From: Deltaproteobacteria bacterium
Lineage (GTDB): Bacteria > Desulfobacterota > Dissulfuribacteria > Dissulfuribacterales > DYLC01
DNA length: 64,000 nucleotides
Reading direction: 5' to 3'
Assembly: GCA_028695735.1 (NCBI GenBank)
Contig: JAQVIJ010000003.1
Span: 62,001 to 126,000, forward strand
Shown here: piece after piece, positions 15,395 through 45,386 of the stretch
How positions within the stretch are numbered: position 1 is the stretch's first letter
How the letters are laid out: each line of letters opens with the position of its first letter
Notes under the pieces: model-generated
What the model was told of the DNA's origin: nothing
Database searches by the model: none
Seen by the model: the letters and a program-made list of their open reading frames with translations, nothing else
Position numbers and translations under genes: made by a program

Positions 15395-16135
15395 TTATTT
15401 GAAGAACCTCAAGAAGGCATCGAGATTGGTCATGGGATGGGGTGGGCAGCCAGGGATGTAGAGGTCCACGGGCACAAGGGTCTCAAGTGGAATGATCTCT
15501 GGGCTGCCTCGAAACGGACCGCCTGAGATGGCGCAACAGCCTGCTGCTATTACGATTTTGGGTTCAGGGACTGCATCATAGGTGCGCAGCAGGGCCTCTC
15601 TCATGTTACGGGTCACTGGGCCTGTGACATGTATGCCGTCTGCATGGCGAGGTGAGGCCGCAAAGCCTATGCCAAAGCGGGAGAGGTCAAAAAACGGGGT
15701 GTTGAGCACATTGGTGTCTGCCTCACAGGCATTGCAGCCTCCTGCGGATACCTGGCGCAGTTGAACAGACCTGCCGAACAATCCCTGAACGTCTTTTCGC
15801 CTGTGGACCGTGAGGTCAGGCATGGCCCCTGATGTGAGCAGGTCTTCCCGTCTGGTGGCAGCCATGGCGAATTCGTTGGTAAAATGTACAAATTCACCGT
15901 TGGATATGCGTTCACACAGGCCGCAGAAGACACATTTTCCCAGGTCGATGAGCCTTTTTTTGGCATCTATGGCCTCCTGTGGGCACATCTCTGCGCATCT
16001 TTGAGCCATTTCGTCTCTGCACGCTGTGTTGACTTGGGGAAGCCCCTTGAAATGCCTGTGCAGTGTAAGGGGTTTTGTTGGGTATTGGCTGGTCCTGTAG
16101 CCCTGATGAATGCGTGTCTTTAGAATCTTGAGCAT
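15395..16135 (-). CDS. Ehr/hydrogenase-4-like small subunit (NuoB-type) with N-terminal ferredoxin
   Basis: 246 residues. The first ~90 form a ferredoxin-like segment: CAEMCPQEAI plus CVFCGLCERI. It is followed by a NuoB/HyfI domain with GGCNACEADTNV, AAGCCAISGG and IPGCPPHP, the cysteine set for the proximal [4Fe-4S] cluster. These features would pass electrons to or from the large subunit. The fused ferredoxin probably replaces a separate HyfH/NuoI subunit, which is missing. It is last of six genes in the operon, 9 nt after the large-subunit gene. Because the large subunit has lost its Ni ligands, I call it Ehr-like rather than hydrogenase. Confidence 0.85.
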   Translation of the reverse strand: MLKILKTRIHQGYRTSQYPTKPLTLHRHFKGLPQVNTACRDEMAQRCAEMCPQEAIDAKKRLIDLGKCVFCGLCERISNGEFVHFTNEFAMAATRREDLLTSGAMPDLTVHRRKDVQGLFGRSVQLRQVSAGGCNACEADTNVLNTPFFDLSRFGIGFAASPRHADGIHVTGPVTRNMREALLRTYDAVPEPKIVIAAGCCAISGGPFRGSPEIIPLETLVPVDLYIPGCPPHPMTNLDAFLRFFK

Positions 16136-16144
16136 GGTCTCCTC

Positions 16145-17716
16145 CTATAGATCAAACCCGCAGTAGGAGAGGTTGAAGCTTTTGTTGTTCAGTGGAAAGT
16201 CCGAGATCTCCTCGTTTCTTAAGGCCATGGCCAGGCCTGTCCAGTTGTGAAATGACGGGTCTTTGATCTTGTAGCGCAGAATGCCGCCCCTGGAGTCCGT
16301 GAGCACACAGTGGGAGAGCTCCCCTCGCCAGGCCTCGTTCAAAGTGGTGACACAGCTGCTCGAGGCCAATGATACCTCACCTGTCCAGACCACCGGCTGA
16401 GTGGTGACAGGTCGTTGCAAAAGTCTCTCTATGATGTCGAGGGAGTGCAAGATCTCCTCGAAACGCACCATGGCCCTGGAAAAGACGCCTCCATGGGTGC
16501 GTGTGTGAAGGCATGCAGGGATCTCGCTGTATTTTTCTGTGGGGAATGCTTGCCTTACATCATAGTCTATGCCTGAGGCCCTGCCTGCCACTCCCACCAG
16601 CGGTATCTCACGGCTGACCACTCCGCAGCCGTCAAAACGGGCCTGCACCGTGTGGGCTGAAAAGAGCAGGTCCCCAACCTCTTTAATCTCAGGCCTGAGT
16701 TCTTTTATCTTGCTTAAAATGAGGTTTCTGGAGTCCTCGATGAGACCCATTGTGACTCCGCCCGGCCTTACCAGGTTCTTGCCGAAGCGGTTGCCGGCCA
16801 TGACCAGCAGCAGGTTCAGAAACTCCCCGCGAATGCGGCCAAAGTATGCGGCACTGGAATTAAAGGCCACATCTCCGCTCAATGCGCCTAAGTCCCCCAC
16901 ATGGTTTGCGATGCGTTCCAGCTCCAGCGCCACGGTGCGCAGGGTCTTTGCCCCGTCGTCAGGGGTGAGGTTCAAAAGGGCCTCCATGGCCTGACTGAAA
17001 CACAGGGCGTTTCCCACCGCCGTGTCTCCGGCTATGCCTTCTATGAGAATGGGAAGCCTTTTGAAGGGCACTGATGTGAGCAGGGGCTCCACTCCCCTGT
17101 GCTGGTATCCCAATTGAATCTCTAAGTGCAGCACCCGTTCTCCTATACACTGAAAGCGAAAGTGGCCGGGTTCGATGATGCCTGCATGCACAGGGCCTAC
17201 GCCCACCTCGTGTATCTCTTCCCCTTCCACTTGAAAATACGGATAGTTGCCAGGGATGTCTTGAGTATAGTCATTGCCGAAGACATCCTTGACCCCGCGG
17301 CAGTTGGCGTGGTAGCGAACGGGTTTGAGCCAGGGGTGATCTTTGGGTATAAGACCGAATTGTTCGGCGATCTCCCGCTCAAAGAGCTGAAAACGCATGT
17401 CCTGACGGCTTAAGGCGTCAAAGGTCTCGGGTGCTGTGGTCTGAACCGCAAAGAGCTGGTGATCCTTACGCAGGACTGCCATCAGTTGAACAGTGCCTTC
17501 CTCTTCATAGCTGAAGAAGTCCCGTGAAGGGGCGTTGAAGCCCAACATCAACACCTCTTTGATTGAAGGGTCCTCCTGATAGGCAAAGAACTGCACCACC
17601 TCGGCCCCCTTGAAGGCCAGCTTCAAAAGATTGGTCCTGAATTCAGAAAAATGCAGATATGGCACTTGAATGCGCTTAAAGGGTCTGCCGTTTTGAATGG
17701 TTAAGAAATCAGCCAT
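16145..17716 (-). CDS. Ehr/hydrogenase-4-like large subunit lacking Ni-binding cysteines
   Basis: 523 residues from ATG 17716, chosen because GGGAGG lies 8 nt upstream; a longer frame starts at 17779. An N-terminal NuoC-like part (to about residue 150, FEREIAEQFGLIPKDHPWLKP) is fused to a NuoD/HycE-type domain (LHLEIQLGYQHRGVEP). Where group 4 [NiFe] hydrogenases have ERICGIC, this protein has EGIAGDT. Where they end in DPCxxC, it ends SFNLSYCGFDL. Both Ni-coordinating CxxC pairs are therefore absent and hydrogen chemistry is unlikely. The partner small subunit keeps its cluster cysteines. The substrate site is probably different and unknown. Confidence 0.85.
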   Translation of the reverse strand: MADFLTIQNGRPFKRIQVPYLHFSEFRTNLLKLAFKGAEVVQFFAYQEDPSIKEVLMLGFNAPSRDFFSYEEEGTVQLMAVLRKDHQLFAVQTTAPETFDALSRQDMRFQLFEREIAEQFGLIPKDHPWLKPVRYHANCRGVKDVFGNDYTQDIPGNYPYFQVEGEEIHEVGVGPVHAGIIEPGHFRFQCIGERVLHLEIQLGYQHRGVEPLLTSVPFKRLPILIEGIAGDTAVGNALCFSQAMEALLNLTPDDGAKTLRTVALELERIANHVGDLGALSGDVAFNSSAAYFGRIRGEFLNLLLVMAGNRFGKNLVRPGGVTMGLIEDSRNLILSKIKELRPEIKEVGDLLFSAHTVQARFDGCGVVSREIPLVGVAGRASGIDYDVRQAFPTEKYSEIPACLHTRTHGGVFSRAMVRFEEILHSLDIIERLLQRPVTTQPVVWTGEVSLASSSCVTTLNEAWRGELSHCVLTDSRGGILRYKIKDPSFHNWTGLAMALRNEEISDFPLNNKSFNLSYCGFDL

Positions 17717-19154
17717 GAATATAGCCTCCCATGGTGAGCGCAACGCCCTGATATTTGACTGCCATGGAGATGGCCTCATGAATGCCTTGTGGCAGATAAA
17801 TGGTGAGTAAAACAGATGTGGCGATGAGGAGATAGATGGGGATTACCATTCGCCATTTCTCAGGGACCAGAAGCTCACCCGTAAAATTCCCAAAGGAGAT
17901 GCGAATGACCGCCTTGGCGGCCCCAGCAAAGACCAGGGCAAGCCCTATGAGAAAGACAGCCGTTTGAAGATAGGCCTGTTGCTGTAAGGCGCCGAAGACT
18001 ATGAGCATTTCACTTAAAAAGATACCAAATGGCGGAAAGCCGGAGATGCCGGCAAAGCCTGACATAAAGGCTGTAAAGGTGCGAGGCATGTAACGGGGCA
18101 TGCGGCCTGTCTCTCGAATCTTCTTGCTGCCGAAACCCAAAAGCATGTTGCCCGATGAGAGAAAGAGGGAGGACTTCAGCAGGGCATGATGAATGAGGTG
18201 CAAAAGGGCGCCGTAGGCCGCAAGCCCTCCAATACCTATGCCAAAGGCTATTACACCCATGTTTTCGATGCTGGAATAGGCCAAAAGACGCTTGTAATTG
18301 TCCTGCTGCATCATGAATACCGCGGCTATGAGAATGGAAAAGAGTCCGAACCACACCAGAAGCTGGCTGGAATACCATTGAATGCCGGCAGAGGTCAAAA
18401 GCCCATGGGTCTTTAAAATGCCCAGGAATGCACAGTTCAGCAGGGCGCCTGAAAGCAGGGCGGAGACAGGGCTGGGCGCCTCGCTGTGGGCGTCAGGCAG
18501 CCAGGTGTGCATGGGTGCAAGGCCCATCTTGGTGCCATATCCGATGAGGGTGAAGATGAAGCCTGCCTTAAGCCATATGGGCTCCACTCCAGTGGCATTC
18601 TTCAGCAGGTTTTGAAAGGTCATGGAGGTGTTTGAGTCGCTGCTCTTGATGGCCATCAGCGTAAAAAATACGCCCAGAAGTGCCAATGCAATGCCCACGG
18701 AGCAGATCAGGACATATTTCCAAGTGGCCTCCAGGGCCTCTTTTGAGCGGTGTAAAAATATGAGCGGCGCACTCATGAGGGTGGTGGCCTCTATGGCTAT
18801 CCATAGGACTATGATGTGATCCGTTACAGCCGCCATGCCCATGGCAGCCAAAAACAAGAGCAGACATGCGGAGAACACAGGCTCGTTGTGCATCTCCGTC
18901 TCGGCCATGTATGAAACCGTGTAGAAGGCCACCATCAAATAGAGAAAAGAGGTGACCAGGAGCACCAGATTGCCCTCAGGCGTGGTCTGAAAATAGTCGG
19001 GCCAGAGGGCGGGCAAACCCTGAAAACAGATGATGCCAGTAAAGCCCAGATGCAATACGCCGAGGCCGGTTATTACCATACGGCCCATGGCCCTTGGCAG
19101 AAAGAAGGTAAGAATGCCTGTAAGTGCAGGGATTATGAATATGAGTTCCAGCAT
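17709..19154 (-). CDS. Ehr/HyfF-like antiporter-type membrane subunit (NuoM/N family)
   Basis: 481 residues with about 13-14 membrane segments. Proton-channel motifs are present: IVLWIAIEATTLMSAPLI (TM5 Glu), GTKMGLAPMHTWLPDAHSEA (TM7 Lys and amphipathic loop), and YKRLLAYSSIENMG. These belong to the Mrp/NuoLMN antiporter family and suggest proton or sodium translocation. It overlaps the start of the large-subunit gene by 8 nt and follows the HyfE-like gene by 3 nt. It is the second antiporter-type subunit of the operon, beside the product of 20726-22720. Confidence 0.85.
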   Translation of the reverse strand: MLELIFIIPALTGILTFFLPRAMGRMVITGLGVLHLGFTGIICFQGLPALWPDYFQTTPEGNLVLLVTSFLYLMVAFYTVSYMAETEMHNEPVFSACLLLFLAAMGMAAVTDHIIVLWIAIEATTLMSAPLIFLHRSKEALEATWKYVLICSVGIALALLGVFFTLMAIKSSDSNTSMTFQNLLKNATGVEPIWLKAGFIFTLIGYGTKMGLAPMHTWLPDAHSEAPSPVSALLSGALLNCAFLGILKTHGLLTSAGIQWYSSQLLVWFGLFSILIAAVFMMQQDNYKRLLAYSSIENMGVIAFGIGIGGLAAYGALLHLIHHALLKSSLFLSSGNMLLGFGSKKIRETGRMPRYMPRTFTAFMSGFAGISGFPPFGIFLSEMLIVFGALQQQAYLQTAVFLIGLALVFAGAAKAVIRISFGNFTGELLVPEKWRMVIPIYLLIATSVLLTIYLPQGIHEAISMAVKYQGVALTMGGYIHG

Positions 19155-19157
19155 GTG

Positions 19158-19811
19158 TTACCCCTTTAATTCCTGCAAAAACATGGTGTCTGCGTCGTCA
19201 AAGGAACGGCTTATTCTGTGTACTATGATGCCCATCACCATAATGCCCACCAGGATGTCCAGAAGTATGCCGAATTCCACCACGAATTGCGTATGTGCCT
19301 CTCGCGCCAGTACAGAACCGGCCAGATAGATGCCGTTTTCCAGAATGAGATAGCCTGTGGCCTGTGTAAGTGCCTTGTGTCGGGCTACGAGCAGAAAGAG
19401 TCCTGCTGCAATGGTGGTAAAGGCAGCCGGCAGAAGAAGGGGATGCAGACCTTCTGAGGCCACTTGCATTTTATGGCTTATAAAGGCGGCGATTACCATC
19501 ATGACCAGGCCTGTAAGAATGGAGGCGTGATAGCCGATAATGGGTTCCAGTTCCATCTTGGCAGACACCCTTTGGCTTGCAAACCAGAGCAGCCCAGGCA
19601 TCACCACCCCTTTGATGCCGATAAAGAGCAGGAGAAAAAGGATGTCCAATTGGGATGCGGTGTGAACGCGTTCCAACAAAAACGGCACCAGTGAGACCAG
19701 CACTCCCTGAAATGCCATGATGCGAATGAGTTCCTGAATGCGACTGCTTCCCAGGGCCATGAGCACTGAAAGCAGGATTAAAACCAGTGAGATATCCGAC
19801 AGGTGTAACAT
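19158..19811 (-). CDS. Ehr/HyfE-like membrane subunit (NuoK-related)
   Basis: 217 residues from ATG 19811, with GGAG 7 nt upstream; the longer frame to 19829 would overlap the previous gene. It has about six or seven hydrophobic segments and follows the HyfE pattern, with a NuoK-like C-terminal half (LLVARHKALTQATGYLILENGIYL). The acidic residue in LILENG fits a proton-path position in this family. It lies between the HyfC-like and HyfF-like genes, in the same order as in hydrogenase-4 operons. Confidence 0.8.
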   Translation of the reverse strand: MLHLSDISLVLILLSVLMALGSSRIQELIRIMAFQGVLVSLVPFLLERVHTASQLDILFLLLFIGIKGVVMPGLLWFASQRVSAKMELEPIIGYHASILTGLVMMVIAAFISHKMQVASEGLHPLLLPAAFTTIAAGLFLLVARHKALTQATGYLILENGIYLAGSVLAREAHTQFVVEFGILLDILVGIMVMGIIVHRISRSFDDADTMFLQELKG

Positions 19812-19812
19812 G

Positions 19813-20721
19813 TTACATCTCCAGTACAAGGATTACTGCAAAAAAGGCCAGGGCAAAGGAGGTAAGTATGAATTTGGGCACAAGCCGCATGCGAAAACGG
19901 GCGGTTATGGATTCTATGATGCCGATGGTGAGGTAGATTGCTGTGATGACAGCAAAAAAGGCCGGTATGGCTGTGATTGTACTGAGCTCTGGCAAAAGCA
20001 GGTCTGCTATGAGGGTGGCATAAAAAAGGAGTTTGAGCCAGGCGCTCATCTCGATGAATGCCAGGTCCGGGCCGCTGTGGTCCAAAATCATGACCTCGTG
20101 TATCATGGTGAGTTCCAGGTGTGTGGCAGGGTCGTCCACTGGCACACGGGAGTTTTCAGCCAATAACACCACGAACAGGGCAATGGCAATGAGGAGCAGG
20201 ATGGCACCCTCAGGTCTCCAGATGGAGATGGCATTGGGCCCTGTGAAATAGTCGTTCAGGCTCAGAGTGCCGTTTAGTTTGTAAAAGAGCATCAGCACTG
20301 TAAAGAGTGTGGCCTCACACAAAAACGAGAAGTATGCCTCCCGTGCGGCCCCCATGCCTTCAAAGGGCGAGGCTGTGTCCAGGGCCGCTATAATCAAAAA
20401 GAACCTGGCTATTCCAAAGAGATATAGCACCAGAATCACATCGCCAGAAAAGGAGAGCAGGGCAGGCATTCGGGCTATTGGTAGAAATAGAATGGCTATG
20501 ACAGAGACAGCCAGGGAGATCACAGGCATGGTCTGAAACACAAAGGTGGTGGATTCGCTGTAAACAGAGCCTTTTTTCAGGAGTTTGGCCAGGGTGTAGT
20601 AGTTTATGAGGAGTGGAGGCCCTTGTTTGCCCACTAAAAAGGCCTTGGTCTTGGTAATTACGGCCGAAAAGAGCGGGGCAAGGGCTACGGCCAAGAGGTA
20701 GATGAAAAGGGATGTCAGCAT
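19813..20721 (-). CDS. Ehr/HyfC-like membrane subunit (NuoH family)
   Basis: 302 residues from ATG 20721, with GGAGG 7 nt upstream. It has about eight membrane segments. Family motifs are KQGPPLLINYYTLAKLLKK near the N-terminus, SPFEGMGAAREA, and VPVDDPATHLELTMIHEVM, which matches the HyfC/HycD signature. In complex I and group 4 hydrogenases this subunit couples the peripheral arm to the ion pumps. It starts 4 nt after the HyfB-like stop. Confident as a family member, with no independent clue to substrate. Confidence 0.88.
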   Translation of the reverse strand: MLTSLFIYLLAVALAPLFSAVITKTKAFLVGKQGPPLLINYYTLAKLLKKGSVYSESTTFVFQTMPVISLAVSVIAILFLPIARMPALLSFSGDVILVLYLFGIARFFLIIAALDTASPFEGMGAAREAYFSFLCEATLFTVLMLFYKLNGTLSLNDYFTGPNAISIWRPEGAILLLIAIALFVVLLAENSRVPVDDPATHLELTMIHEVMILDHSGPDLAFIEMSAWLKLLFYATLIADLLLPELSTITAIPAFFAVITAIYLTIGIIESITARFRMRLVPKFILTSFALAFFAVILVLEM

Positions 20722-20725
20722 GAAA

Positions 20726-22720
20726 TTACCTCCACAACCAGGTGACCACCAGAAGGGCTGCAATGGCCAGCACAATGTAGCTGATATATATCTGAAGACT
20801 GCCGTGCTGTATCCAGCGCAGGGAGCGCATGGCCCTCACAACAGGCATGGCTATGCGTTGCACTGCCAGGGTCTCGGCTATATCCAGAATGCTGGAGTGA
20901 TAGCGCGCCTTTGTGGGAAAGACGCCGACGGGCTCCTGGCATTCCTCGTGAATGGGGGCAAATGGTCTGAAAAACTCCAGAATAGAGGCTGCAAAGGATG
21001 AGCCTGTGTACTGTATTCGAGGGCTGGCCTTGGTGTATCCGCAGCCCCATGTGCAGGTGCGAGAGATGGGTTTGTGTCTATATAAAATGACTCGCAGCCA
21101 CCACAAGGCGGCACACACGAGCAGGAACAAGACGCTGCCCCATGAGATACGAGTAGTCAGGTCCATTATGGCTTGAGTCTGTAGAAGGGTTGTGGGTTGG
21201 TGTGTCATGGTAGTGACCATGGATATGGCTGATTTAAGGGCAGGTTTTGCAAAGACCGTGGGCAAGATACCTATGGCTATGCACATAGTTGCCAGAAACT
21301 GCATGGCATATCTCATGGATAGAGGGGCCTCGTGGGCATGCCTCGCCTCAGATGTGCGGGGTTCTCCCAAAAAGACTATGCCTGTTGCCTTGGTGAAGCA
21401 GGCCACTGCCAGTCCTCCGATGACCGCCAAGCTTATGGCCCCCAGGATTGTCAGCAGAAAGTCCATGTTGCTGATCTGCCTGGACTGAAATGCGGCGTTA
21501 TAGATGAAGAACTCGCTCACAAAGCCGTTTAATGGAGGCAGGCCGCAGATGGCTACAGCTCCGATAAGGGATGCCAATCCTGTGATGCGCATCTGTTTCA
21601 TGAGCCCGCCCAAGCGTTCAATGGCCAGGGTGCCTGTCCCGTGTGCCACACTTCCGGCTGCCATAAAGAGCAGGGACTTGAAGATGGCATGATTCAGTAC
21701 ATGCATGAGCCCGCCTGTAAAGCCACAGACAGCCATTATGGGATTGCCGGATGACATGCCTATCATCCCGATACCAATGCCTATGAGTATGATGCCGATG
21801 TTTTCTATACTGGAATATGCCAACAATCTCTTGATGTTGTTTTGCCCCATGGCATAGATCACACCCAGTATGCCGGACACCATGCCAAGTATCAAAACAG
21901 TACGGCCTATGGCCAGGGAATCAGGGGCAATGGTAAGATAAAGCCGCAGTATTCCATAGATGCCCATCTTGATCATGACCCCTGACATGATGGCCGAGAC
22001 ATGGCTCGGAGCCGCAGGGTGTGCATGGGGAAGCCAGATGTGCAGTGGAAAGATACCTGCCTTGGAGGCAAGGCCTGCAAATGCCAGGAAAAAGATGAGG
22101 AGCTTTGTGGATTCAGGCACGGGTGCACTTGCTGAAAGGCTGAAGGAGCCGGTCAGGCCATGAAGCCAACCAAAGGCTGCAAAGATGAAGAGGGCGCCTG
22201 CTTGAGTGAAGATAAAGTATATGTATGCCGCATGCCTGGTTGCCTTTTGTTCGTAGTCATAGACCACCAGAAAACAGGATGAGATGGACATGAGTTCCCA
22301 GGCCAAAAGGAATGTGACCATGTCGTGCGCCACCACTACTAATGACATGGCGCTGGCAAGTATGCCCAGAAGGGCCTGGTTTATGAGGGTGCGCAGCCCT
22401 TTTTCCCTTTCATTCAGGTAATGAAATCCATAGACGGCTGCAGCGCCTGTTATGAGGAATATGGTCAGCAGAAAGAAGGCTGACAGATTGTCCATGGAGA
22501 CGGACAGGATCAGGATATGTTGCCAGCTATAGGTGAGACTTTGAATGCCTGTCTCATTTATTCCTTGCCACACACTCCACAGCCCCATTAGGCAGCCCAG
22601 CAGTATGCCGATTGTCCCTAATTTCTTGGCAATCTGTGGCTGTGAATAAAGGGCTATGGAGGCGATGGGAATACTGGATAAGACAAAAACGGCCAAGAGG
22701 AGGGTTTGAATGGTGTTCAT
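20726..22720 (-). CDS. Ehr/HyfB-like antiporter-type membrane subunit (NuoL family)
   Basis: 664 residues with some 14-16 membrane segments. Motifs include FLLAWELMSISSCFLVVYDY (TM5 Glu), GIFPLHIWLPHAHPAAPSHV (TM7 Lys equivalent region and HPAAPS loop) and KRLLAYSSIENIG. It is the first gene of the operon, 198 nt downstream of a good promoter at 22918-22946. The C-terminal ~120 residues form a soluble or hinge part (CTWGCGYTKASPRIQYTGSS) seen in HyfB/HycC. It probably carries one of two ion-translocating channels in this complex. No strong ribosome site precedes ATG 22720. Confidence 0.87.
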   Translation of the reverse strand: MNTIQTLLLAVFVLSSIPIASIALYSQPQIAKKLGTIGILLGCLMGLWSVWQGINETGIQSLTYSWQHILILSVSMDNLSAFFLLTIFLITGAAAVYGFHYLNEREKGLRTLINQALLGILASAMSLVVVAHDMVTFLLAWELMSISSCFLVVYDYEQKATRHAAYIYFIFTQAGALFIFAAFGWLHGLTGSFSLSASAPVPESTKLLIFFLAFAGLASKAGIFPLHIWLPHAHPAAPSHVSAIMSGVMIKMGIYGILRLYLTIAPDSLAIGRTVLILGMVSGILGVIYAMGQNNIKRLLAYSSIENIGIILIGIGIGMIGMSSGNPIMAVCGFTGGLMHVLNHAIFKSLLFMAAGSVAHGTGTLAIERLGGLMKQMRITGLASLIGAVAICGLPPLNGFVSEFFIYNAAFQSRQISNMDFLLTILGAISLAVIGGLAVACFTKATGIVFLGEPRTSEARHAHEAPLSMRYAMQFLATMCIAIGILPTVFAKPALKSAISMVTTMTHQPTTLLQTQAIMDLTTRISWGSVLFLLVCAALWWLRVILYRHKPISRTCTWGCGYTKASPRIQYTGSSFAASILEFFRPFAPIHEECQEPVGVFPTKARYHSSILDIAETLAVQRIAMPVVRAMRSLRWIQHGSLQIYISYIVLAIAALLVVTWLWR

Positions 22721-24548: not shown

Positions 24549-25133
24549 TCAGGTCTCTCTCATCACCCGTGCCCAATCAATGACGACCTGGGGCATGGTC
24601 ACGGCAGGTGTAGTGTTAACTAATTCATATATCTTGGGCTTGCCATAGGCGCCATTTTCCAGGAGATAGATGGTTACGATGCGATCTATTGGGTGCACCA
24701 GCCAGAACTCCCGCACTCCCACCCGTTCGTAGAGGTCGCGCTTTTTGATCTGGTCATGGGATGCCGTAGCAGGCGACAACACCTCGATGATCCAGTCAGG
24801 CGTCCCGCGGCAGCCGCGCTCGTCCAGCTTGGCCTTGTCGCAGATCACGCTGATATCAGGCTGCACCACGGTATCTACGGCGTCATCGGCCTCATTTTCC
24901 CGTGGCAGGCGCACATCAAAGGGCGCGATATAAGGCCTGCATGACGAGCCCTCTAATGAATCGGCGATCTGACGGGCCAGTTCAAGCACCACCTCCTGAT
25001 GAAGTCGTGTGGGTGCAGGCGTCATTGCATAGGCAACGCCGTCAATGAGCTCATAGCGTACATCTGCTGGCCATTGTAGGTAATCGGCATAGGTATAATA
25101 TTCCAATTTACGCTGTGGCAGTCCCATGAGCAC
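24549..25133 (-). CDS. Uma2-family (DUF820) nuclease-like protein, copy A
   Basis: 194 residues. A Uma2 protein with the restriction-endonuclease-like core: VVQPDISVICD, PDWIIEVLSPATASHDQIKK, YERVGVREFWLVHP. Family members are widespread, often multicopy, and their biological role is not settled. It differs from copy B (25376-25960) at about 11 residues, clustered near LELARQIADSLEGSS and at the C-terminus (KIYELVNTTPAV). ATG is preceded by AGGAGGTGCTC. It lies 53 nt upstream of rng on the same strand. Confidence 0.85.
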   Translation of the reverse strand: MLMGLPQRKLEYYTYADYLQWPADVRYELIDGVAYAMTPAPTRLHQEVVLELARQIADSLEGSSCRPYIAPFDVRLPRENEADDAVDTVVQPDISVICDKAKLDERGCRGTPDWIIEVLSPATASHDQIKKRDLYERVGVREFWLVHPIDRIVTIYLLENGAYGKPKIYELVNTTPAVTMPQVVIDWARVMRET

Positions 25134-25375: not shown

Positions 25376-25960
25376 TCAGGTCTCTCTCATCACCCGTGCC
25401 CAATCAATGACGACCTGGGGCATGGTCAAGGCAGGGGTGGTGTGGAGTAGTTCGTCTATCTTGGGTTTGCCATAGGCGCCATTTTCCAGGAGATAGATGG
25501 TTACGATGCGATCTATTGGATGCACCAGCCAGAACTCCCGCACTCCCACCCGTTCGTAGAGGTCGCGCTTTCTGATCTGGTCATGGGATGCCGTAGCAGG
25601 CGACAACACCTCGATGATCCAGTCAGGCGCCCCGCGGCAGCCGCGCTCGTCCAGCTTGGCCTTGTCGCAGATCACGCTGATGTCAGGCTGAACCACGGTA
25701 TCTACGGCGTCATCGGCCTCATTTTCCCGTGGCAGGCGCACATCAAAGGGCGCGATATAGGGCCTGCATGGCGAGCCCTCTAATGCATCGGCGATCTGAC
25801 GGAATATCTCGCCAACGACCTCCTGATGAAGTCGTGTGGGTGCAGGCGTCATTGCATAGGCAACGCCGTCAATGAGCTCATAGCGTACATCTGCTGGCCA
25901 TTGTAGGTAATCGGCATAGGTATAATATTCCAATTTACGCTGTGGCAGTCCCATGAGCAC
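25376..25960 (-). CDS. Uma2-family (DUF820) nuclease-like protein, copy B
   Basis: 194 residues, about 94% identical to copy A by eye. Motifs are the same (VVQPDISVICD, PDWIIEVLSPATASHDQ, REFWLVHP), and differences include GEIFRQIADALEGSP and KIDELLHTTPAL. It follows plsY by 21 nt and is probably co-transcribed with it. Position next to intact plsY suggests this is the original location on the plsY side, and copy A keeps the original rng side. Function unknown. Confidence 0.85.
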   Translation of the reverse strand: MLMGLPQRKLEYYTYADYLQWPADVRYELIDGVAYAMTPAPTRLHQEVVGEIFRQIADALEGSPCRPYIAPFDVRLPRENEADDAVDTVVQPDISVICDKAKLDERGCRGAPDWIIEVLSPATASHDQIRKRDLYERVGVREFWLVHPIDRIVTIYLLENGAYGKPKIDELLHTTPALTMPQVVIDWARVMRET

Positions 25961-41568: not shown

Positions 41569-43289
41569 GTTCCTTCCAATACACTGCGCTGCGCCATGCG
41601 CTCAGAGCGCCGCTTGGCCACATATATAGACCTCTGTGGTGTATTCATGTCTCGTTCTGAGACATACATGGCCGTGGAAAGGGTGCCAGGCGTGGGAGTG
41701 AAGTCCTGAAACTGGCGTACGGTCAGGCGCAGTTCCTTTAATCTTTTGGCCAAGGCATGCATGTGGGCAAGTGTACAGCCTGGATGGCTGGAGATAAAGT
41801 AGGGATTGAATCTTATTGGCCTTTTTTGCAGGCGTGCCATGGCCTGGGCCTCCTTTAGAAAGTCCGCAAGACAGGCGGCAGCCGGCTTGTGCATCAGGCG
41901 CAGCACCTCCTCTTCTGTGTGTTCGGGTGCTATCTTGAGGCTGCCTGGAGTGTGATGCAGTAAAATGGCCTCCATGAGTTTAGGTGTTTTAAGGAGCAGT
42001 TCCATGCGTAGCCCAGAGGATACGAATACCCGGCGAATACCCGGGAGCTTTGCGGCCTCTCTCATGAGGTTGAGATGAGCGGTTTCATTCAGTGAGAGAT
42101 TGGGGCACGGCCTTGGATACAGGCAGTCTTTGCGAGAACAGACATGGGACCTTTTGCACTGAGCAGCGTAGAGATTGGCCGTGGGCCCTCCTAAGTCTGA
42201 AATGACGCCGTCAAAGCCTGGAGTGCGTGTGAGGCGTTTCAGCTCCCGCATCACCGAGTCTATGCTGCGGGAGACCACCACAGGCCCTTGATGTCGGGCT
42301 ATGGCGCAGAAGGAACAATTGCCTGGGCAGCCGCGCACTATGGTGACGGAGTTGCGAATCATGGAAAAGGCAGGTGTGCCCCTGGCTGCCAAAGAGGGTA
42401 GCCCAGTAAAGGGCAGGTCGTAGATGGCATTCAGCTCCTGAGGGGAAAGCGGAGCGGCGGGCTCATTCTGCTTGACCCACAGGGCCTGCTGGCGCTGAAG
42501 TAAAATGGTTCTGTCCCCTGAACGGGCGTGTTTGTCCACAAGGAGTTCGGCGGTCAAAAAGCGAACAGGGTCCTGTTGAATCTTCGCGAGGCTGGGCAGC
42601 ACCGAGGCCGCACCAGTGCTGATGAGCCTGCTGGCCTCTTGGTCTGTCAGGGGTTCGCATGTGCCGGCAATGTTGGAGAGGTCCTTTTGTTGTGAAAGGC
42701 GTTGGGCTATCTCTGTCACCGCCCGTTCACCCATGCCATAGACCAGGAGATCGGCCTTGGCGTCTGTGAGCACTGAGGAGCGAATGCGTTCCTGTTGATA
42801 GTCGTAGTGAGCAAAGCGGCGCAGGGATGCCTCGATGCCGCCCAAGATGATGGGCAGGTCTCCAAATGCCTCTCTGGCCAGTTGTGCATAGCGGATGACC
42901 GCCCGGTCAGGCCTTCTGCGCAGCCCGCGTGCCTTTTCTTGGCCAAAATACGGGTTCCCTGCCGGAGAATAGGCGTCTTTGTCCCTTACACGGGCGTTTC
43001 CAGAGTAGTTGGCCACTATTGAATCCATATTGCCGGAGGTGATGCCGCAAAAGAGCTTAGGCCTGCCCATGGCCTTAAAGGCTTGAGCGTCTTGATGCCA
43101 GGGTTGCGCCAGAATCGCTACGCGCAGCCCCAAGGATTCCAGCAGCCGTGCTATGATGGCGATGCCGAAGCTTGAGTGGTCGATGTAGGCATCCCCTGTC
43201 ACCAGAAGGATATCGTATTCTGTCCATCCAATGCCGCGCAGCCCTTCTGGATTGACTGGTATCATGTTATTTGGCATGTGTTTTGTCAT
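41565..43289 (-). CDS. YgiQ-family radical SAM protein
   Basis: 574 residues. An N-terminal cobalamin-binding-like segment (DILLVTGDAYIDHSSFGIAI, QPWHQD) precedes the radical SAM motif GCPGNCSFCAIARHQG (C-x3-C-x2-C). Further landmarks are GGIEASLRRFAHYDYQ and GMGERAVTEIAQRL. The C-terminal part has YFISSHPGCT and a late DFTPTPGTLSTAMY. The reaction of YgiQ is not known. The start at 43289 overlaps the marC stop by ATGA, supporting this choice despite no clear ribosome site. Confidence 0.92.
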   Translation of the reverse strand: MTKHMPNNMIPVNPEGLRGIGWTEYDILLVTGDAYIDHSSFGIAIIARLLESLGLRVAILAQPWHQDAQAFKAMGRPKLFCGITSGNMDSIVANYSGNARVRDKDAYSPAGNPYFGQEKARGLRRRPDRAVIRYAQLAREAFGDLPIILGGIEASLRRFAHYDYQQERIRSSVLTDAKADLLVYGMGERAVTEIAQRLSQQKDLSNIAGTCEPLTDQEASRLISTGAASVLPSLAKIQQDPVRFLTAELLVDKHARSGDRTILLQRQQALWVKQNEPAAPLSPQELNAIYDLPFTGLPSLAARGTPAFSMIRNSVTIVRGCPGNCSFCAIARHQGPVVVSRSIDSVMRELKRLTRTPGFDGVISDLGGPTANLYAAQCKRSHVCSRKDCLYPRPCPNLSLNETAHLNLMREAAKLPGIRRVFVSSGLRMELLLKTPKLMEAILLHHTPGSLKIAPEHTEEEVLRLMHKPAAACLADFLKEAQAMARLQKRPIRFNPYFISSHPGCTLAHMHALAKRLKELRLTVRQFQDFTPTPGTLSTAMYVSERDMNTPQRSIYVAKRRSERMAQRSVLEGT

Positions 43290-43933
43290 GGATTATGTGC
43301 GGCAAGGCCGGGAAACAGTATCAGAAGCCCGCCTGCTATGAATTCAATGGCAATGGAGGCCAAAAGCAGGCCCATGATGCGTGTCACTACATTTATGCCT
43401 GTTTTCCCCATGAGCCTGCTGAGGGGCATGGCCATGGAGAGGGTGACCCAGGTGATGATGCCCACCAGCAGGCTGCTCAGAATCAGAAAAAGCAGGCCCT
43501 TCCACTGTGTGAAACGGTTGGAATATATTATCATGGTGCTGATGGCCCCTGGCCCTGCCAGCACCGGTACGGCCAGTGGCACAACGGAGATGCCCTCTCT
43601 CTCCACTGCCTCAGCTACCTCCTCTTCTGTGTGCCGGCTGCCCTCAGCCTTGGCATGCATCATGGAGATGGCCATGAGCAGGAGCAAAATGCCGCCTCCC
43701 ACGCGAAAGGATGGAATGCTGATGCCGAAAAATTTGAGTATTTCATCGCCGAGGACACTGGCCGTTACCAGCACGGTGGTCACAGTGATTGCTGAGATGC
43801 GTATCATGTGCCGGTTCATGGCCTCTGCCTGGTGCTGGGCAAGGCTCAGGAAGACTGGTATGGCGCCCAGGGGGTTTACGATAAAGATCAGAGAGATGAA
43901 TGCCTTGAGATATTCGGTGAATTCGTTGTTCAT
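43286..43933 (-). CDS. MarC-family integral membrane protein
   Basis: 215 residues with six membrane segments. The opening FISLIFIVNPLGAIPVFLSL and the later PLAVPVLAGPGAISTMII are signature stretches of MarC/UPF0056 proteins. Despite the name, family members are not established drug exporters and their substrate is unknown. It is first in a marC-ygiQ-membrane-protein operon joined by ATGA overlaps. Its 5' end overlaps the divergent cytochrome gene by up to 38 bp. Confidence 0.9.
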   Translation of the reverse strand: MNNEFTEYLKAFISLIFIVNPLGAIPVFLSLAQHQAEAMNRHMIRISAITVTTVLVTASVLGDEILKFFGISIPSFRVGGGILLLLMAISMMHAKAEGSRHTEEEVAEAVEREGISVVPLAVPVLAGPGAISTMIIYSNRFTQWKGLLFLILSSLLVGIITWVTLSMAMPLSRLMGKTGINVVTRIMGLLLASIAIEFIAGGLLILFPGLAAHNP

Positions 43934-45386
43934 AGTGTTTTTTGGGGTGTTGTTTGGTTATGGTTGCTCCATGCCGGAGCGTCCTGTGTTTCAAAAGACC
44001 GGCTGTGAATCTTGTCATTCAGTGGCATTCAGTCATGGCCTTTCCTGTGAAGTCTGTCATGGCGGCAATGCAAACATGTTTACGAAACAGGCGGCCCATG
44101 CCGGAATCGCTGCAAATCCCGCCTCTCCGCAGTATATGCGAGACACCTGCGGGAGCTGCCACACACAAGAGGCAAGAAGCGCCGCTCAATCTATTCATTT
44201 TACTCTAATTCACGAGATACAAAAGACCTGGCAGGCCTTTTTCCCTGAGGAGGTCATGGATTTGACTCAATTGCAGGGGCTTGCCGCCTCGACAAAGGAA
44301 CCCATGACTCATCGCAGACTGGTGGCTGACCTGCTGGTCAGGCGTTGTCTGCGTTGCCATCCATATACCGATGGCGATGATTACGCCATGACTCATCGCA
44401 GGACCGGCTGTGCGGCGTGTCACCGGATACATGATTCAGGGGGCATGCAGCGGGTGCCGGACGAGCGCTGTCTCTCCTGCCATTATGCCAATTTTGTGGG
44501 CTGGGATTACTACGGCCGTTTTGAAAAGGACTATGAAGAAGACTATCGCGCCCCTTTGGAACAGGGCCGGTTTTCTCAAAGGCCTTATGGCGTGGAGTGG
44601 CACGAGATGACACCTGATGTGCACAAAACGGCCGGCATGGGCTGTACTGATTGCCATGTCCTTGGGCCATGTGAAGAAAAAGGGCAGGTCAAAAGGAGGC
44701 TGGAGTGTGTGGATTGCCACACAGCGGCCGAGAATGAGGGGATTTTAAAGGAATTTGGTGAGATTTCCTCAAAAAAGAGGCGGTTGATTCAGGCCAAACT
44801 CCAAGCCTTTAAAGGACCTGAAATGGAGCCCCATCGGTTAGGTCACAGGGAGCAGGACAGAAAGCGAGTTGCCTGTGCTGCCTGCCATGCTGTGTGGAGT
44901 GTGCAGGATATGCGGAGGTCACTGACGCTTCAGGAGCGCCCTGACCTTGAGGAGTGGTCATATCTCATGGTGCAGGGCAGCAGTGAGGTGGAGGAGGTGG
45001 TGGGCTATCAACTCCTGCGCCAGGGGTTTTGGCAGGCCTTTGAGCCTGGTTGGGAGCTGGCAAATTCCATGGCATCTGGCAAGGCCATTTGCGGGAATGA
45101 ACCCTGTATGAAGAACAAGTTTACTAATGAATGCGCATCAGGTATCTGGTTTGAGGCCTTTTTGCAGCGTAGATGGGCCCCTGTGCCCCTGGGAGTGGCA
45201 AAAGACGGCAGGATATCAGTGATGCGGCCCATCTTGGATCTGGAGCTTTTTTATGTGAATTCAGAAGGGGAGGTGGAGATAAACGCCCTGCGGCCGATTT
45301 CAGGTGCCATGCAGCCATACTCACCCCACACCATCGGAAGGGCAAATGAGTTCAGGAGCCGTGAGGTCGATGAGATGTTGCGGTGA
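43896..45386 (+). CDS. Nine-haem c-type cytochrome lipoprotein
   Basis: About 496 residues. A signal sequence SLFIVFFGVLFGYGC ends in a lipobox Cys, so the protein is exported and lipid-anchored. Nine CxxCH sites are visible: CESCH, CEVCH, CGSCH, CLRCH, CAACH, CLSCH, CTDCH, CVDCH, CAACH. The C-terminal 150 residues lack haem motifs but have four more cysteines (one in AICGNEPC). The frame is open back to 43176, but the leader with signal peptide makes ATG 43896 (or GTG 43917) the likely start. It likely carries extracytoplasmic electrons. No other respiratory gene is adjacent. Confidence 0.85.
   Translation: MNALRYSVNSLFIVFFGVLFGYGCSMPERPVFQKTGCESCHSVAFSHGLSCEVCHGGNANMFTKQAAHAGIAANPASPQYMRDTCGSCHTQEARSAAQSIHFTLIHEIQKTWQAFFPEEVMDLTQLQGLAASTKEPMTHRRLVADLLVRRCLRCHPYTDGDDYAMTHRRTGCAACHRIHDSGGMQRVPDERCLSCHYANFVGWDYYGRFEKDYEEDYRAPLEQGRFSQRPYGVEWHEMTPDVHKTAGMGCTDCHVLGPCEEKGQVKRRLECVDCHTAAENEGILKEFGEISSKKRRLIQAKLQAFKGPEMEPHRLGHREQDRKRVACAACHAVWSVQDMRRSLTLQERPDLEEWSYLMVQGSSEVEEVVGYQLLRQGFWQAFEPGWELANSMASGKAICGNEPCMKNKFTNECASGIWFEAFLQRRWAPVPLGVAKDGRISVMRPILDLELFYVNSEGEVEINALRPISGAMQPYSPHTIGRANEFRSREVDEMLR

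Follow-up and report, generated by a model that had tools for sequence, protein, structure and literature searches.

A window of 64,000 nucleotides from a Desulfobacterota genome (contig JAQVIJ010000003.1) carries, at positions 15395-22720, a complete set of ehr genes that encode a complex resembling hydrogenase-4 and complex I. We see about an even chance that Ehr is a six-subunit, membrane-bound oxidoreductase that is fed by ferredoxin and pumps ions, and that it is not a hydrogenase. What distinguishes the complex is its large subunit, EhrL, in which every ligand of the NiFe site has been replaced and a different set of residues is held without variation across a large group of homologues.

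The interval is filled by six consecutive minus-strand open reading frames (ORFs), and their assignment in an earlier note to HyfB, C, E, F, G and I, in that order, agrees with the family matches. Searches against Pfam and NCBIfam identified HyfB-like (E 1e-172), HyfE-like (6e-23), HyfF-like (3e-94), NuoH/HyfC and NuoD/HycE proteins, and the product of ehrS combines a NuoB-like match with a HycF-like N-terminus. Based on the lengths of homologues, ehrL, ehrC and ehrB probably begin at internal start codons (17716, 19811 and 20721, respectively). The genes are as follows.

15395 to 16135, minus strand: ehrS, HyfI-like small subunit, 246 amino acids (aa), assigned by family matches, structure model and alignments
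16145 to 17716, minus strand: ehrL, HyfG/NuoCD-like large subunit, 523 aa from the inferred start M22 (longest ORF to 17779)
17709 to 19154, minus strand: ehrD, HyfF-like antiporter subunit, 481 aa (HyfF match 3e-94)
19158 to 19811, minus strand: ehrC, HyfE-like membrane subunit, 217 aa from the inferred ATG at 19811 (longest ORF to 19829)
19813 to 20721, minus strand: ehrB, NuoH/HyfC-like subunit, 302 aa from the inferred ATG at 20721 (longest ORF to 20775)
20726 to 22720, minus strand: ehrA, HyfB-like antiporter subunit, 664 aa (HyfB match E 1e-172)

Ehr is reportedly the Ech-hydrogenase-related complex, ehrABCDLS, of Coppi 2005 and Marreiros 2013, and is said to correspond to GSU0739-0745 in Geobacter. 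By its six-gene set and its lack of Ni motifs, the window cluster appears to be a member of this published family, the identity that the earlier note had suggested. Ehr has been reported in Geobacter, Sulfobacillus, Methylacidiphilum, Margulisbacteria, comammox Nitrospira and ammonia-oxidising archaea, and the literature assigns it no established function (PMC4378227, PMC6349859, PMC10284858, PMC10432482), in line with the note's view that the substrate is unresolved. One scan of species genomes confirmed 503 loci, about 90 of 394 sampled Desulfobacterota genomes hold the complex, and the order of the six genes is kept in almost all homologous loci that extend far enough to reveal it. Two complete or near-complete operons of different clades can lie within about 15 kb of each other (L147/L172 in G098; L119 in G315). 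EhrL ORFs of 890-1045 aa in L113, L116, L118, L123 and L167 suggest in-frame EhrD-EhrL fusions.

Alignment of EhrL with Escherichia coli HyfG and HycE places DRVCGIC on EGIAGDT and DPCYSC on NLSYCG; both CxxC pairs are gone, and the four columns of Ni-ligand cysteines are occupied by A250, T253, S538 and G541. The earlier note had deduced the loss of the Ni-binding motifs from EGIAGDT and from an end reading SFNLSYCGFDL. The alignment, which could have put two CxxC pairs at the Ni site, put none there, and the note's judgement that H2 activation is unlikely is consistent with every check that we ran and with the literature. The loss is, however, a feature of the whole family and not only of the window cluster.

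The site in the window reads A250-G251-D252-T253 together with N536-L-S538-Y539-C540-G541. In all 86 homologues from clade A, to which the window belongs, and clade B, the residues A250, G251, D252, T253, K533, S538, Y539, C540 and G541 are identical, and the same is true of H198, E203, H206 and H490. The more distant clade C has SGD(T/S) and N-x-SYSG, and the mark of the family would thus be (A/S)-G-D-(T/S) with K533, S538, Y539 and G541. We considered C540 as a key residue throughout the family and rejected it: it is conserved in clades A and B and replaced by Ser in clade C, and is therefore dispensable. The quinone-head ligands of Thermus thermophilus Nqo4 are His38 and Tyr87, whose columns in EhrL hold I202 (Ile in 86 of 86) and G251 (likewise 86 of 86). 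Because the Ni ligands and also the quinone His and Tyr are replaced, the pocket matches neither the NiFe type of site nor the standard quinone type, and we interpret it as remodelled, not eroded.

Among solved proteins, the best relative of EhrL is HycE of the E. coli formate hydrogenlyase (7z0s); MbhL and NuoD/Nqo4 come next. The predicted structure of EhrL (AlphaFold2; predicted local distance difference test, pLDDT, 87.7; predicted template-modelling score, pTM, 0.90) matches HycE with a template-modelling (TM) score of 0.80, the nearest fold. The C-terminus falls at the point where maturation would cut HycE, and there is no maturation tail.

In a tree of 60 large subunits, Ehr clades A, B and C form one Desulfobacterota-wide group that includes the window protein (support 100/99). 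A second branch of the same support (100/99) separates Ehr, together with another Ni-less group that we call clade D, from the CxxC hydrogenases and NuoD; the root was set by the Nuo outgroup, which itself sits on a long branch. This topology is compatible with the Ni site having been lost only once, in an event common to Ehr and its sister clade D. Members of clade D carry the motif ERFSGxSAF ... GLSxAExDR (L178, L179, L180, L181, L193, L199), and several have an Ehr-like operon of their own.

The remodelled complex is maintained. Across ten close pairs of clade A operons, the ratio of nonsynonymous to synonymous substitution rates (dN/dS, Nei-Gojobori) is mostly 0.03-0.2 (range 0 to 0.33) in all six genes, all of which are thus under strong purifying selection. 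A 2026 Geobacter paper describes Ehr as nonfunctional and under relaxed selection (PMC13194489). Given values this low in all six genes, our data argue against that statement, with the proviso that the pairs come from clade A and not from the Geobacter lineage.

The NuoB-like domain of EhrS holds the cysteines of a proximal cluster (C134, C137, C201 and C230), which, as the earlier note had it, are kept: they are conserved in 84 of 84 clade A and B sequences and in 40 of 41 of a broader set, the exception being a clade D row that reads CCCD. The structure model (pLDDT 90.3) matches HycG. The N-terminal ferredoxin domain contains one [4Fe-4S] motif, C51 with C68, C71 and C74, and not two; every clade A row, the window protein included, has a single cluster, and most clade B rows have two. 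Because the clusters of this domain differ by clade, electron entry would appear to be variable, with the proximal cluster nearly constant. The domain that the note described is therefore present, but it seems to be a clade-specific remnant, absent from clade C, and not a general replacement for HyfH.

The membrane arm is similarly well preserved. EhrA residues E142, K220, K297, H340, H344, K348 and E403 are nearly invariant (72-73 of 73), as are E122, K209, K288, K327 and E382 of EhrD (65-68 of 68), so the pump residues of both antiporter subunits are intact. HycC has lost two of these antiporter lysines, and in this respect Ehr is closer to Hyf than to Hyc. In EhrB, the NuoH-type acidic residues E154, E207, D214, E221, E227 and E288 are invariant.

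Taken as a working scheme, low-potential electrons, most likely from reduced ferredoxin, would be taken up by the one [4Fe-4S] cluster in the N-terminal domain of EhrS and handed to the conserved proximal cluster, from which they would reduce an acceptor in the remodelled cavity of EhrL. The redox change might then be transmitted, by way of charged residues in EhrB, to the antiporter-like pumps EhrD and EhrA. We suppose that electrons flow in this direction and that the ion moved is H+ rather than Na+. Menaquinone would be the simplest acceptor in these bacteria and is our first guess, although nothing in the pocket proves it.

Several observations count against this scheme. EhrL has I202 and G251 where complex I has its quinone-head ligands, so that a standard quinone site is absent, and Riflemargulisbacteria have been reported to possess Ehr without a complete quinone pathway (PMC6349859). 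The EhrS of clade C (about 170 aa) has no ferredoxin domain, and a fixed ferredoxin input is therefore not a family-wide rule. Moreover, the presence of Ehr bears no relation to that of Rnf/Nqr across the sampled genomes (odds ratio, OR, 1.07), and on this ground we rejected the idea that Ehr replaces Rnf.

The source genome (2.22 Mb) falls in the same order as Dissulfurimicrobium hydrothermale, of the Desulfobacterota, and its EhrL shares 74% identity with that of a same-order relative, taken as D. hydrothermale. Family searches of the genome found, elsewhere than in the ehr cluster, a separate NuoD, two NiFe-hydrogenase large subunits, HypD and acsB; they did not find Rnf or Nqr. Since HypD and two true NiFe large subunits are encoded, maturation of Ni enzymes should be available in the cell, and EhrL would simply be without the ligands. 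The statement that maturation genes are missing is thus true of the cluster and not of the genome.

Complex I-type enzymes are reversible, and Ehr could instead spend the ion-motive force on reducing ferredoxin with electrons from a mid-potential donor, in the service of CO2 fixation or other biosynthesis. The source genome has acsB and no Rnf, and the relative D. hydrothermale, a thermophilic autotrophic sulfur disproportionator (PMC8780430), would need such a step. Against this, acsB is present in 36 of 90 Ehr genomes compared to 234 of 304 others (OR 0.20, confounded by lineage); Ehr does not track acsB, and many of its holders therefore do not fix CO2 by the acsB route. Reverse operation of Ehr seems to us unlikely. 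The same negative co-occurrence led us to reject Ehr as a supplier of ferredoxin to the Wood-Ljungdahl pathway. We also made no use of IorAB (2-oxoacid:ferredoxin oxidoreductase) near Ehr as support for ferredoxin, as it occurs in one genome (L118), where the intervening ORF is a spurious frame.

The comparison of operon neighbours across Desulfobacterota that the earlier note had proposed yielded three recurrent neighbours: an LCIB-like carbonic anhydrase, a protein with HTH_17 and PTS EIIA_2 domains (HTH-EIIA), and a second EhrA. Of 80 clade A loci, 22 have the LCIB-like gene next to the operon, in every case on the same strand; in 19 it lies upstream, before ehrA, and in 3 downstream, after ehrS. 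The 80 loci are the best-scoring ones and not a random draw, and their genomes are related. In the separate sample of 394 genomes, close homologues of the gene occur in only 7. Five of them adjoin Ehr; of the other two, one is at the end of a contig and one stands beside a SulP gene without Ehr. The gene precedes ehrA in two Ehr clades (clade A in G361, G409 and G169; clade B in G081 and G213). In both clade B genomes the order is LCIB, HTH-EIIA, ehrA1, ehrA2, B, C, D, L, S, in nine-gene, single-strand operons (L206:2621-13948 and L205:2185-13664), with the ehrA2 frame split into three ORFs in G081 / L205. Following ehrS on the same strand are a SulP carrier in G361 (L158) and a beta-carbonic anhydrase in G409 (L159). 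The association is too frequent for chance, with the reservation that the genomes are related, that the loci were chosen by score and that the source genome lacks the gene. The literature that we searched does not mention it, although the subscription papers (Coppi 2005, Marreiros 2013) may differ.

These neighbours raise the possibility that Ehr links its redox-driven proton pumping to the conversion or uptake of CO2/HCO3- by way of a partner carbonic anhydrase and a carrier of bicarbonate type, in the manner of cyanobacterial NDH-1MS. The assignment to LCIB is modest: PF18599 (LCIB_C_CA) is matched by 21 of 21 members, with a best E of 6.6e-6 that lies around the curated cut-off, and the sole match in the Protein Data Bank is a weak one to PtLCIB4 (E 0.14), in which the presumed zinc ligands C54, H106 and C133 (Cys-His-Cys) are kept. 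In addition, the LCIB-like gene was not found in the source genome, its nearest relative or most Ehr loci, SulP may carry sulfate in sulfate reducers, and Ehr is rarer in acsB genomes. On balance we hold a role in inorganic carbon to be improbable. Its more specific form is, in our estimation, quite improbable: that Ehr, the adjacent LCIB-type carbonic anhydrase and SulP together form a redox-driven inorganic-carbon machine of anaerobes, a non-photosynthetic counterpart of NDH-1MS, with the carbonic anhydrase of the window copy either lost or drawn from another family.

A third proposal, made for Margulisbacteria and Saganbacteria (PMC6349859), is that Ehr works in a complex linked to formate dehydrogenase, as a quinone- or NAD-coupled analogue of formate hydrogenlyase. 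Ehr subunits increase in Geobacter grown on formate (PMC7894505), and the nearest fold to EhrL is that of HycE. The operon, however, has no HycB-like subunit, and among about 150 loci, annotated by cluster representatives so that a rare case could escape, formate dehydrogenase is not a recurrent neighbour; a molybdopterin oxidoreductase cluster appears in two. We regard this proposal, too, as quite unlikely. That Ehr is a decayed, nonfunctional hydrogenase under relaxed selection, in keeping with the lost Ni ligands and with missense mutations in two Ehr subunits after long growth on an anode (PMC13194489), is extremely improbable and already contradicted for clade A by the low dN/dS, the invariant pocket residues in the sampled clade A and B sequences and the retained six-gene order, and Ehr proteins are made in Geobacter (PMC7894505).

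In 28 of the fetched loci the HTH-EIIA protein is encoded close to the operon, usually directly upstream of ehrA on the same strand (including L173:16008-16772 and D. hydrothermale), and it is possibly a regulator or sensor linked to Ehr. The second ehrA gene is found in many clade B loci. Of the 80 loci, 19 (L036_d1 and 18 others) encode a hexapeptide-repeat protein of about 470 aa in the vicinity of Ehr, often accompanied by a CBS-domain protein and a Na+/sulfate symporter.

The window operon stands alone between adk (plus strand) and an RNase G-like gene, both named from their translations and not by family search, and has no informative neighbours. Directly upstream of the RNase G-like gene are two near-identical tandem Uma2-family (PF05685) genes of 194 aa each (24549-25133 and 25376-25960, minus strand), a recent duplication. 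Farther along, a multihaem cytochrome c-like protein of 736 aa with cytochrome c3/c7 matches (43176-45386, plus strand) lies beside a radical SAM gene with Radical_SAM_N (PF08497; 41565-43289).

Ehr is widespread, the question of its substrate dates from 2005, and a recent paper holds the complex to be nonfunctional; the data presented here point to strong selection and a specific new active site. They also provide handles for future work, namely the pocket residues D252, K533 and S538/Y539, the natural range of EhrS forms, from two ferredoxin clusters through one to none, and the carbonic anhydrase that recurs as a partner. A pump that keeps the complex I frame around a redesigned catalytic cavity would bear on the descent of complex I and hydrogenases. 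New here are the conservation counts for the pocket, the range of EhrS forms, the test for selection and the link to carbonic anhydrase, although some may already stand in Coppi 2005 or Marreiros 2013.

Looking across known systems, the likeness to cyanobacterial NDH-1MS/DAB is confined to LCIB-bearing Ehr loci, where a complex I-like proton conduit has a carbonic anhydrase partner; there the carbonic anhydrase is a separate gene, absent from the source genome, and we noticed neither CupA/B nor DabA in the neighbourhood. Archaeal MBS/Mbx and Mbh (6u8y, 6cfw) are ferredoxin-linked and ion-pumping, and the Ni site is altered in MBS/Mbx. Set apart from MBS/Mbx by description, EhrL has no conserved Cys in the four Ni-ligand columns, and the pumps of Ehr are of HyfB/HyfF type. 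With complex I (NuoB/C/D/H/L/M/N), Ehr shares a fused large subunit of NuoCD type, a proximal cluster of NuoB type and the antiporter Lys and Glu residues, but its operon has no NADH module (NuoEFG), NuoA or NuoJ, the quinone His and Tyr are missing, and NuoD is encoded separately in the source genome. E. coli Hyf and formate hydrogenlyase have the same subunit order (B, C, E, F, G, I) and an EPGHF loop, and formate hydrogenlyase provides the best fold matches for both EhrL and EhrS. Ehr differs from them in lacking HyfA, D, H and J, the CxxC pairs and the C-terminal maturation tail, and in the fusion of its ferredoxin to the small subunit. Within the family, many clade B loci have the second EhrA and the HTH-EIIA gene, both absent from the window, and clade B EhrS usually has two ferredoxin clusters where the clade A EhrS of the window has one. 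The published Ehr, by description for Geobacter, is like the window cluster in its HyfB-, NuoH-, HyfE- and HyfF-like proteins, in its large and small subunits and in its freedom from Ni motifs.

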